Source: Arthrobacter sp. PAMC25284 (lineage in GTDB: Bacteria; Actinomycetota; Actinomycetes; Actinomycetales; Micrococcaceae). Taken from it: 64,000 nt of DNA. The notes under the pieces are model-generated. The model saw nothing but the letters and a program-made list of their open reading frames with translations. It did not search any database and had not been told where the DNA came from. Positions 7,924 through 59,894 of this stretch are shown here, piece by piece; the stretch's first letter is position 1, and every line of letters begins with the position of its first letter. The position numbers and the translations under genes were made by a program. Location of the stretch: positions 496,001 to 560,000 of the forward strand of contig NZ_CP080382.1 in NCBI RefSeq assembly GCF_019443425.1, given 5' to 3'.

Positions 7924-10471
7924 TCAGAGGCGGTTCACGTCGGTGACCCGCACTACGGCGGTGCCGGTCTCATCCGAGGCAGCCAGATCGACATCCGCGG
8001 AAATGCCCCAGTCGTGGTTGCGGGCCGGATCATCAAAGATCTGCCGGACCTTCCAGACGCTGGCTTCCTCCGTGATGAACAGCAGGCCGGGACCGCGCGC
8101 GTCCGGACCCGTCCCGATGTCATTGTGCTCGTCAAAGTAGTCATCCAGTGCATCCTCCCAGCGTTCGGCATCCCAACCGGAACCGGCGTCGAGTTCACCC
8201 AGTGCGGTGGCTGCCTCGTCGGCGAACAACTCCACGCGGCGGAACATCTCATTGCGCACCATCACCCGGAAGGCCCGGGTGTTGGCGGTCAGCGACGGCG
8301 GCGGGGGAGGCGGGGCATCGTGCGGGGTCGGTGCGGCGCCGGAGGTGAGCTCCTCCCACTCGTCGAGCAGGCTCGAGTCCACCTGCCGGACGAGTTCGCC
8401 GAGCCAGGCGATGAGGTCCTCAAGGTCCTCGCGGAGCGCATCCTGGGGGACGGTCTGGCGGAGGGCCTTGAAACCGTCGGCGAGGTAGCGCAGCACAATC
8501 CCCTCGGAGCGGGCCAGGCCGTAAAACTGGACGAATTCGCCGAAGTTCATGGCGCGCTCGTACATGTCCCGGATTACGGACTTGGGCGCGAGTTCGAAGT
8601 CGCCGATCCAGGGAGCGGCCCGGCGGTACACGTCGAAGGCCTCGCCAAGGATCTCCGCGAGTGGTTGCGGGTAGGTGACCTCTTCGAGCATGGCCATGCG
8701 CTGGTCGTACTCAATCCCGTCGGCCTTCATCGCCGCGATCGCTTCGCCGCGGGCCTTCTTCTGCTGTGCGGCGAGGATCTGGCGCGGCTTCTCCAGCGTC
8801 GATTCAATCACCGAGACAACATCCAGGGCATATGACGGCGACTCCGGGTCCAGCAGCTCCAACGCGGCGAGGGCGAACGGGGACAACGGCTGGTTCAGCG
8901 CGAAGTTGGCCTGCAGGTGCACGGTGAGCCGTACGGTGCGGCCGTCCGGGCCTTGTTCTTCGGGCGGGATCCGCTCGACGACGCCGGCGGCGAGAAGTTC
9001 GCGGTAGATGCCGAGCGCCTTCTTCATCAGCTGCAACTGGGAAACCCGGGGTTCATGATTCTCCGTCAGCAGCCGGCGCGCCGCCTGGAACGGGTCGCCG
9101 GGGCGTTCCATGAGGTTCATCAGCATCGCGTGGGTCACCGTGAAACTGGACGTCAGCGGATCGGGGACCGACTCCACGAGGCGCTTGTACGTCGGCTCGC
9201 CCCAGGACACGAAGCCTTCAGGTGGCTTCTTCTTGACCACTTGGCGGAGCTTCTTCTGGTCATCGCCAAATTTCGCCGTAGCCTTCGCCATGGCTTTGAC
9301 GTTTTCCGTGACGTGTTCCGGGGCCTGCACCACAACAGTTCCGGCCGTGTCATAGCCGGCGCGGCCGGCGCGGCCTGCGATCTGGTGGAATTCGCGGGAG
9401 TTCAGCAGCCGGGTCCGGACGCCGTCGTACTTGCTCAGGGCCGTCAGCAGGACGGTGCGGATGGGCACGTTAATACCCACCCCGAGGGTGTCCGTGCCGC
9501 AGATAACCTTGAGCAGTCCGGCCTGGGCCAGTTGCTCCACGAGCCGGCGATATTTCGGCAGCATCCCGGCGTGGTGGACGCCGATGCCATGCCGGACGAG
9601 CCGGTTGAGGGTCTTGCCGAAGCCGGCGGCGAAGCGGAAACCGGCAATCAGCCCGGCGATCTTGTCCTTCTCCTCGCGCGTGCAGACGTTGATGCTCATC
9701 AGGTTCTGCGCCCGGTCAATCGCCTCGATCTGGCTGAAGTGCACCACGTAGACAGGAACCTGCTTCGTCGCGAGGAGCTCCTCAAGCGTCTCGTGGACCG
9801 GGGTCTGTTCGTAGTAGTAGTGCAGCGGAATGGGACGTTCCGCGGAACTGACGGTCGTCGTCGGGCGCCCGGTCAGTTCGGTGATGCCCGCCTCGAAACG
9901 GCTGACATCGCCGAGCGTCGCAGACATCACCAGGAACTGGGCCTGCGGGAGTTCCAGCAGCGGGACCTGCCAGGGCCCAGCCGCGCTGCGGGTCGGAGTA
10001 GAAATGGAACTCATCCATGATCACGGCGCCGAGCACTGCCGCGGCGCCCTCACGGAGGGCGATATTGGCCAGGATTTCGGCGGTGCAGCAGATAATCGGT
10101 GCGTCCTGGTTGACGCCGGAGTCACCGGTGATCATACCGACGTTCTCGGCGCCGAAGATCTCGCAGAGGGCAAAGAACTTCTCCGAAACGAGGGCCTTGA
10201 TCGGCGCCGTGTAGTAGCTGCGCTGCCCCCGGGCCATGGCCTGGAAATGCGCGGCGATCGCCACGAGCGACTTACCCGACCCGGTGGGCGTGGCCAGAAT
10301 GACGTTGGCGCCGCCGGCAAGCTCCATCACGGCTTCATCCTGGGCGTCATAGAGCGCCAGTCCGCGGGTTTCGGTCCACTCCACAAAGCGGGTATACAGC
10401 TCGTCCGGGTCCAGGCCCGTCCTGCCGGAAAGTCGGGCGGCAGGGGCAGGGAGCTGGTCAACGAGTTTCAT
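7924..10471 (-). CDS. Ski2-like DEAD/DEAH-box RNA helicase, interrupted by a +1 frameshift
   Basis: The N-terminal frame starts [16 protein letters not shown] at 10471. It carries Walker A TPTGSGKS (about 61-68), motif Ia [11 protein letters not shown] and the DExH box DEFH (about 153-156). It then shifts at GGGCCC (9973-9978). The rest continues one frame away with SAT (LVMSATLG), motif [14 protein letters not shown] and a long C-terminal DUF3516-like region to 7924. Removing one base joins ...DPQRGWA to [12 protein letters not shown] and gives about 848 residues, the normal size for this actinobacterial family. The role is presumably RNA unwinding or turnover. The break matches seven others in the window and I read it as a sequence error. 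Confidence 0.88.
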
Positions 10472-10607
10472 CGCTCTCCAGCTTAGTGCCCGCCGCAGCG
10501 TCGGCGGGCCTGTCCCCCCGGCAGCCCTGGTGGGTGCCTCCTCCGCAGGCGTCTGGTCCCCGGCTAGGATTCGACCAGTGCATCATCGTCCGGAACCGGA
10601 GGCACTC

Positions 10608-11387
10608 GTGAAATGGGATCCCGCAAAATATGTGCAATTCGGGGACTACCGGGTCAGGCCCTTTTTTGACCTGACGGCACGCATCCATGCCGAAGCGCCA
10701 CGTCACGTCGTTGACCTGGGTTGCGGCCCGGGCAACCTGACCGCAACCCTCGCCGCACGCTGGCCGGGGGCGCAGGTGGTGGGCCTGGATTCCTCGCCCG
10801 AGATGCTGGCCAGATCCCGGGACCACGCCGCCGCCGCGGCCAATCTTTCCTATGACCTGATGGACATCGCCGGCTGGATGCCCTCCGGCGGGACGGACGT
10901 GGTGGTCAGCAACGCCGCCCTGCAGTGGGTGCCCGGCCACCGCCAGATGCTGCCGGCGTGGCTTGACGCGCTCAAGCCGGGCGCCTGGTTCGCCCTGCAG
11001 GTCCCGGGAAACTTCGGCGCCCCGTCGCACACCCTCATGCGCGAACTGGCCGAGTCCGACGCCTGGGCCGGCAGGCTCGCCGGTGTACTCCGCCATGCAG
11101 ACGTTGTGGGGGACGCGGAGGAATATCTGGGCATCATGCTCGACGCCGGATGTGACGCCGACGCCTGGGAGACCACGTATCTGCAGCTGCTCCCCGGCGC
11201 GCATCCGGTACTTGAGTGGGTCCGCGGCACCGGACTCCGGCCGGTGCTCGCCGCCCTGCCCGGGGACGAGGCGGAGGAGTTCGAAGCCGAGTATTCGGCG
11301 CTGCTGGACACGGCGTACCCCGCAGGCGCGCACGGGACCGTCTTCCCGTTCCGGCGGACCTTCGCCGTGGCCCGGAGGCGCGGCTGA
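10608..11387 (+). CDS. tam: trans-aconitate 2-methyltransferase-like SAM methyltransferase
   Basis: This 259-residue class I SAM-dependent methyltransferase begins MKWDPAKYVQFGDYRVRPF, the typical start of Tam enzymes. Motif I VVDLGCGPGNLTA lies at about 36-48, the acidic VVGLDSSPEML at about 60-70, and VVVSNAALQWVP (motif IV) at about 100-111. Tam methyl-esterifies trans-aconitate, an inhibitor formed from the citrate-cycle intermediate cis-aconitate. GTG 10608 is chosen because GGAGG lies 5 nt upstream and the conserved N-terminus begins there. It is divergent from the helicase gene with a 136-bp shared upstream region. Confidence 0.85.
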   Translation: MKWDPAKYVQFGDYRVRPFFDLTARIHAEAPRHVVDLGCGPGNLTATLAARWPGAQVVGLDSSPEMLARSRDHAAAAANLSYDLMDIAGWMPSGGTDVVVSNAALQWVPGHRQMLPAWLDALKPGAWFALQVPGNFGAPSHTLMRELAESDAWAGRLAGVLRHADVVGDAEEYLGIMLDAGCDADAWETTYLQLLPGAHPVLEWVRGTGLRPVLAALPGDEAEEFEAEYSALLDTAYPAGAHGTVFPFRRTFAVARRRG

Positions 11388-59017: not shown

Positions 59018-59167
59018 AGTTGTCAGATCACGCTCCCGAGGCTTACCACAATTCTCTCACCATCGGCGGTGCCGCCCAAACGAAGCCGGTGCGGGCGCTA
59101 AGATCGGAGGCAGTAAAAATCCGCCCCCAGCGCGGCGCCGACGCGCCGCAGAATTCCGGAGCATGTT

Positions 59168-59894
59168 ATGACTGACACATCCACCACCGGCCGCAGCGTT
59201 CTGATCACTGGCGGCAACCGCGGGATCGGGCTGGCAATTGCACAGTCTTTTCTGGCCAACGGGGACAAAGTGGCGGTCACTTACCGCAGCGCATCCGAAC
59301 TGCCCGCCGGGATCCTGGGTGTAAAGGCCGATGTTACAGACGAAGCGTCGGTGGACGCCGCCTTCACCGAAGTAGAAGCCGCCCACGGTCCGGTGGAAGT
59401 GCTGGTCGCCAACGCCGGCATCACGAAGGACACCCTGCTCATGCGGATGAGCGAGGACGACTTCACCTCGGTCATCGACACCAACCTCACCGGCGCTTTC
59501 CGGGTCATCAAGCGGGCTTCCAAAGGCATGATCCGGGCCAGGAAGGGCCGTGTGGTTCTTATCTCCTCGGTTTCCGGCATGTTCGGCGCACCCGGCCAAA
59601 TCAACTACTCGGCGTCCAAGTCCGGGCTGGTCGGCATCGCCCGCTCGCTCACCCGCGAACTCGGCGGCCGCGGCATCACCGCCAATGTGATCGCACCGGG
59701 CTTTATCAACACGGACATGACCGCCGAACTGACGGAAGCGACCCAGAAGGACTACCTCACCAAGGTCCCCGCCGGCCGCTTCGCAGAGGCCCTCCGAGGT
59801 CGCCAACGTCGTCCGCTGGATCGCCAGCGACGAAGCCGCCTACATTTCCGGTGCGATCATCCCGGTTGATGGCGGACTCGGCATGGGCCACTAA
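59168..59894 (+). CDS. fabG: 3-oxoacyl-ACP reductase FabG, with a +1 frameshift
   Basis: FabG reduces 3-oxoacyl-ACP with NADPH in fatty-acid elongation. The protein starts [25 protein letters not shown], with the cofactor motif GGNRGIG (about 15-21), NAG (in [10 protein letters not shown]), the catalytic Ser in ISSVSG and Tyr/Lys in YSASKSGL. At GGCCC (59787-59791) an extra C changes [16 protein letters not shown] to [11 protein letters not shown]. The true C-terminus ([15 protein letters not shown]) continues in another frame to TAA at 59894. Repaired length is about 241 residues, normal for FabG. Confidence 0.92.

Follow-up and report, generated by a model that had tools for sequence, protein, structure and literature searches.

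Single-base insertions at GGCC in the deposited genome of Arthrobacter sp. PAMC25284 and a dnd locus as their candidate source

Eight interrupted genes

The DNA analysed here, called the window in what follows, is a stretch of 64,000 nucleotides from Arthrobacter sp. PAMC25284 (NZ_CP080382.1, positions 496,001 to 560,000), in which eight conserved genes are each interrupted by one extra base within a short run of G and C (Table 1). A sequence-only reading of the window had listed these single-base insertions, and local alignments with three to seven rows per site bear it out: at all eight sites there is a net gain of one base with respect to the aligned relatives, in every row printed (in the bioN and bioY alignments two of the six rows come from one genome), and GGCCC is present on one strand at all eight. 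The gene names proposed there were correct as well, with family matches to a DEAD/DUF3516 helicase, UvrA, a HAD hydrolase, PGK, transketolase, a CbiQ-family BioN-like protein, BioY and FabG. Nearly all of the sites had also been placed in the context RGGCCY (R, purine; Y, pyrimidine); as deposited, seven of the eight have RGGCCCY and only pgk departs from it, with CGGCCCT. The alignment gap falls at the run itself for the sites other than tkt, in which it is inside the G/C run in only three of the seven rows and some bases upstream in the other four, the region being diverged.

The pieces of pgk cover 6-286 and 277-379 of the PGK profile, the same family thus lying on both sides of the break; the named sequences closest to the pgk region come from Arthrobacter and close kin. 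Those of the transketolase cover 2-325 (the N-terminal part) and 329-651 (the C-terminal part) of TIGR00232, and the helicase pieces match the two halves of a helicase (DEAD and Helicase_C). No Pfam match was found for the second pieces of uvrA, the HAD hydrolase gene and bioY; those of bioN and fabG were not searched. The window contains 793 GGCC and 123 RGGCCY against eight breaks, so that only a few of the sites are affected, in agreement with the earlier remark that the errors do not occur at every GGCC. The frameshift scan described below, which is blind to the motif, recovered seven of the eight sites and missed bioN; after four junction-type insertions had been set aside, it left no further insertion in the window. 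A comparison of insertions and deletions (indels) over the whole window with three relatives gave 13 places, four of them members of the eight sites with the motif in register and one tkt, out of register. The other eight places were gene ends, intergenic, compensating or inconsistent, and this comparison is too noisy to stand on its own.

Table 1. Genes of the window with an extra base in a G/C run (positions in the window).
Gene	Run with extra base	Strand	Gene or pieces	Seen by
DEAD/DUF3516 helicase gene	9973..9978	-	pieces 7924-10014 and 9782-10471	ab initio scan and alignment
uvrA	18452..18457	+	gene 15828-18884	ab initio scan and alignment
HAD hydrolase gene	19421..19427	+	gene 18889-19500	ab initio scan and alignment
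pgk	28391..28396	+	pieces 27473-28609 and 28326-28700	ab initio scan and alignment
tkt	37584..37589	-	pieces 37568-38758 and 36514-37758	ab initio scan and alignment
bioN-like gene (CbiQ family)	52891..52895	-	gene 52796-53479	alignment; missed by ab initio scan
bioY	54422..54427	-	gene 54355-54897	ab initio scan and alignment
fabG	59787..59791	+	gene 59168-59869	ab initio scan and alignment

A frame change of another kind is found at 48825-48855 of the window (event at 48842); it is deletion-type, lacks the GGCC motif and lies in a stretch unmatched in the relatives used.

Insertions across the sampled genome and in the ribosomal RNA copies

The genome is a single contig of 3,883,676 bases, with a completeness of 99.99. 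We have searched it for frame changes with a frame-tracking hidden Markov model that relies on codon statistics only, with no relatives and no preset motif, over a sample of 464 kb in all, made up of the window and 20 stretches taken from across the contig. Of the 116 frame changes given by the scan, 79 were taken for gene junctions and removed, since the first frame has a stop close to the break and the second has a start codon; 18 of these 79 are insertion-type, four with GG[CG]CC. The 95% interval of the remaining insertions contains GG[CG]CC in 27 cases out of 30, compared with 12.8% of random intervals, and the longer RGG[CG]CCY in 19 of the 30, compared with 2.0%. Only one of the seven non-junction deletion-type changes has GG[CG]CC. 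Outside the window, GG[CG]CC is present in 20 of the 23 insertions and RGG[CG]CCY in 13 of them, and without any filter GG[CG]CC occurs in 31 of the 48 insertion-type changes and in 3 of the 68 deletion-type ones. The sequence-only reading had proposed to tabulate frameshifts by motif, and over the sampled genome this tabulation does give an enrichment at GGCC.

The motif also emerges when none is preset: the most enriched word of five letters is then GGCCC, found in 27 of the 30 intervals where 3.5 would be expected. In the swapped order, CC[CG]GG is found in nine of the 30 (5.4 expected), and CCCC or GGGG in 15 (5.3 expected), largely within GGCCCC. Runs of at least two G followed by at least two C, with a length of five or more, occur in 27 of the 30 insertion intervals, compared with 15.1% of the random intervals in coding sequence (binomial p 1.8e-19). 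Away from such junctions, stretches of at least three C or G show no enrichment (19 of 30, compared with 58.7%; p 0.38), and on this ground a general homopolymer error outside them was rejected. The 27 events fall on the 1961 junction runs in the coding sequence of the sample. Plain GGCC makes up 3717 of 6053 runs, yet it is the apparent source of only seven of the 27 events, the other 20 coming from longer runs. Over the three codon phases the run starts 7, 8 and 12 times, and the affected genes lie 16 on one strand and 11 on the other.

The ribosomal RNA (rRNA) genes offer a view of the same phenomenon within a single genome. The six copies of the 23S gene differ in length at three places in their body, all of them points where a G run meets a C run. 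At two of these places, an additional C is present in two of the six copies and in none of the 21 copies from five other genomes. At the third, the two shortest copies equal the five copies of genome G199 and the other four exceed them by one or two bases; G199 is the only genome with which this place was compared, the pattern having been matched in no remaining control genome. The only varying place among the six 16S copies is again a G/C junction, in GACGGGGGCCCGCAC, which we take to be a nearly universal stretch; four copies have the usual form and two have one base more. Among the 21 23S copies of the other five genomes there are two within-genome indels, neither at GGCC. Since six copies of one gene vary in length only at the G/C-junction motif, these differences are best read as consensus errors.

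The enrichment at GGCC throughout the sample, the disagreement of the rRNA copies, the housekeeping genes struck and the independence of phase and strand all argue for a consensus error over inactivation, and leave us almost certain that the eight breaks are a motif-linked artefact of the sequence. Real gene loss was rejected on the grounds that conserved genes and rRNA are affected alike, and the earlier judgement that a joint inactivation of pgk, tkt, uvrA and fabG is not credible was sound. Genuine +1 slippage is a known event in G/C runs, and the extra bases do stand in the deposited sequence; mutation concentrated at modified GGCC, or decay of the genome, would nonetheless have taken these four genes together and placed an insertion in GACGGGGGCCCGCAC in two of the six 16S copies, all in a one-contig genome of the completeness given above, and we regard real mutation as very improbable. 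The common sequence at the break in many genes could also suggest programmed +1 frameshifting, or a four-base codon, that leaves the genes readable despite the extra base. Such a slip site would be fixed with respect to the frame, and here the start of the run falls on each of the three codon positions, in genes of both strands and in rRNA genes too, which therefore excludes it as a general account; translational frameshifting was rejected for these reasons and is scarcely conceivable.

A dnd locus and the cause of the errors

The sequence-only reading had gone one step further and named methylated GGCC as the cause, asking for a search for an M.HaeIII-like methyltransferase. PF00145, the C5 methylase family that includes M.HaeIII, is without a match in the genome; the identical search was positive in 10 of 14 control genomes. 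PF01555 has two matches, both with DPPF motifs, which are presumably typical of adenine methylases; as GGCC has no adenine, these two proteins do not support its methylation. Motif-linked nanopore errors due to untrained base modifications do have a documented precedent (PMC10687267). Set against these two results, which cover PF00145 and PF01555 and no other methylase family genome-wide, methylation of GGCC (5-methylcytosine or N4-methylcytosine) followed by miscalling is highly unlikely here. The motif-linked consensus error has stood, then, and the methylated motif as its cause has not.

DNA of Streptomyces lividans carries phosphorothioates at GGCC, and for this reason dnd genes were sought. 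A dnd locus was found on the contig at 1,669,114-1,675,324, with a divergent dndA followed by dndB, dndC, dndD and dndE. DndC is full length (TIGR03183, 695.6 bits against a cut-off of 290.4), DndD (589.1 bits) and DndE (96.8 bits) are both over their cut-offs, and DndA, at 479.8 bits, is just short of its cut-off of 480 (with the PADLOC models, 403.4 bits for DndA and 423.6 for SspA). The DndB profile is covered by two frames, at 2-151 and 141-355 of its 355 positions and each below the cut-off, that meet at the run AGGGCCCT, with the same signature as the eight sites. This break was missed by the scan and so is not one of the 27 events. An unbroken dndB-like frame of 383-400 aa adjoins DndC in the genomes G053, G221 and G831. 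The specificity loop of DndC reads GYPAPRPKFRW, that is, it belongs to the Arg-Xxx-Lys/Arg type (RPK) found in GpsGCC strains, S. lividans itself having RPK (PMC12193691).

The profile TIGR03237 (dnd_assoc_2), used to look for a DndFGH-type partner, had no match, and this search was without a positive in any control genome either. Beside dndE, on the opposite strand (contig 1675418-1680581), lie a protein with a GmrSD_N domain and a PLD-helicase-DUF3427 protein, the latter matching a PADLOC type IV restriction model with 1126.6 bits. These two could possibly stand in for DndFGH as restriction partners.

DndC was found in one of 205 other genomes of the genus, in one of 395 others sampled from the order and, over the cut-off, in three of 397 others sampled from the phylum. 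Because of this rarity, it is unlikely to be a coincidence that a genome chosen for its GGCC-linked errors contains the locus. A dnd locus with a GpsGCC-type loop is a better fit to the errors than GGCC methylation, and the sequence-only reading was probably right about the artefact and its motif and wrong about the chemistry. We consider phosphorothioation the best candidate for the cause of the insertions at GGCC, and a probable one.

The products of dndA and dndBCDE, with the RPK loop in DndC, would place a sulfur between the two Gs of GGCC. This linkage would disturb the reading of single molecules, through either the ionic current of the nanopore or the polymerase kinetics of PacBio, and the caller would score the G/C run as one base too long. 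At a few of the GGCC sites, mostly RGGCCY, the consensus would then be longer by one G or C; phosphorothioation is known to be partial, and this would explain why only some sites are struck. Three steps in this account go beyond what is observed, and we infer them: that the DNA is sulfur-modified, that the assembly derives from native long reads (which would have to be uncorrected by short reads), and that the former causes the errors. Several papers are consistent with individual steps. Error rates of nanopore R9.4 go up around phosphorothioates (PMC9069010) and the polymerase kinetics of single-molecule real-time sequencing are altered at them (PMC9521924). S. lividans has 471 d(GpsG) per million nucleotides, with the modification in GGCC, and in E. 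coli B7A modification is partial, about 12% of the sites (PMC6186775).

Other genomes give a mixed picture, and it should be kept in mind that the comparison assemblies, dnd-positive and dnd-less, may differ from the present one in platform and polishing. Twelve dnd-less one-contig genomes of the genus have GG[CG]CC at two of 12 insertions; per junction run this is 2 of 2636 against 27 of 1961 in the present genome (odds ratio 18, Fisher p 1.3e-8). Six dnd-less genomes from the genus of G611 have it at one of three insertions. In 25 named Arthrobacter loci there is one insertion event, at GG[CG]CC, in an error-rich record, Arthrobacter sp. Hiyo8 (AP014719.1). All but one of the 22 non-junction frame changes in those loci come from this record; 20 of its 21 are deletion-type, most without GGCC, as in a differently error-prone assembly.

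Several observations weigh against phosphorothioation as the cause. Other dnd-positive genomes that were sampled lack the signature: none of four insertions is at GG[CG]CC in G831 (220 kb), none of 11 in seven genomes of 7-11 Mb from the genus of G611 (557 kb), and none of two in the draft G053 (82 kb). The seven are those with at most five contigs among the 19 over the cut-off in that genus, and the DndC drafts G221, G776 and G868 and twelve of the genus of G611 were left out of this sampling. The RPK loop is present in five of the eight signature-free dnd-positive genomes of one to five contigs, so that dnd genes alone are not sufficient for the errors. DndC is not rare everywhere, being over the cut-off in 19 of 393 genomes of the genus of G611, and RPK was found in 18 of the 20 loops read among the actinobacterial DndC fetched (the pattern matched none in five more). 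The loop is therefore consistent with a GGCC target without discriminating it, and adds little to the presence of dnd. The context here is mainly RGGCCY, while that of S. lividans is given as CGGCC or GGCCG in PMC6186775, and near-identical rRNA copies disagree here, while the modified subset of sites is described as reproducible in PMC9521924. Lastly, the errors prefer runs already one base longer than GGCC, which a plain length error in G/C runs would fit too.

Two dnd-positive genomes deserve a separate mention. In G776 the DndC loop is SRR instead of RPK, possibly pointing to another target motif, and in G990 the loop pattern finds nothing in DndC; over 80 kb the latter genome has nine frame changes that are not at junctions, of which six are insertion-type and none is at GG[CG]CC.

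It is along these lines that a plain long-read error at the junctions of G and C runs (GGGCCC-like palindromes), with no modification involved and the dnd locus coincidental, has to be considered. A rate that climbs with run length, with 20 of the 27 events from runs longer than GGCC, is in keeping with it, the excess of CCCC or GGGG is in its favour even if largely part of GGCCCC, and it accommodates the eight other few-contig dnd-positive genomes without the signature. Against it, C or G runs outside the junctions are not enriched and the swapped order CC[CG]GG is little above expectation; the signature is lacking in the dnd-less one-contig genomes of the genus, 12 in number (possibly of another platform, as said), and a coincidental locus is at odds with the single DndC in the other members of the genus. 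We thus hold the plain error to be unlikely, if much less so than methylation, and retain phosphorothioation as the preferred explanation.

Implications and relation to known systems

Should phosphorothioation be the cause, these would be motif-linked insertion errors due to a backbone modification and retained in a deposited consensus. The broader idea, that phosphorothioation of the backbone leaves a footprint which can be read in the consensus frameshifts of deposited long-read genomes, is put forward tentatively, as a possibility that we think rather doubtful. If true, assembly errors alone could be enough to infer the modification motif of a strain, with its flanking preference (RGGCCY in this case), and to match it to the DndC loop; mining public genomes in this way could be a cheap means of detecting and typing Dnd systems in assemblies that already exist. 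By a crude extrapolation from the sample the genome, for all its 99.99% completeness, would contain some 226 such errors; at that number, conserved genes can be mistaken for pseudogenes and the rRNA copies can seem heterogeneous when they are not. No paper was found on phosphorothioation together with nanopore assembly and indels, nor any joining Arthrobacter with phosphorothioation and dnd, and none among the literature matches listed fits a modification-linked insertion error of the backbone type surviving in a deposited consensus.

The closest parallel to the errors themselves is found in Listeria (PMC10687267). In that paper, which makes no mention of phosphorothioation, nanopore consensus errors at GCAGC and GCTGG are likewise motif-linked and lineage-specific in an otherwise clean assembly, and one of the lineages has its errors beside a modification system, as the present strain has them with dnd. 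The Listeria errors are mostly mismatches, for which methylation was suggested, whereas those described here are one-base insertions and probably due to sulfur in the backbone. Nanopore detection of phosphorothioates (PMC9069010) is similar in that the modification changes the base calls around its site; it deals with read-level statistics at GAAC/GTTC against a control, unlike the present errors, which persist into the deposited consensus and are at GGCC.

As for the modification, the nearest systems are the GGCC-type Dnd systems of Streptomyces lividans 1326 and Pseudomonas fluorescens Pf0-1 (PMC12193691), whose target has the same GGCC core as the errors of PAMC25284. The arrangement of dndA divergent from dndBCDE is a further likeness, and the RPK loop of DndC is shared with S. 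lividans. The locus differs from these systems in the GmrSD_N and PLD-helicase-DUF3427 proteins alongside, and PAMC25284 differs from S. lividans in its apparent context, RGGCCY instead of CGGCC or GGCCG (the latter from PMC6186775).

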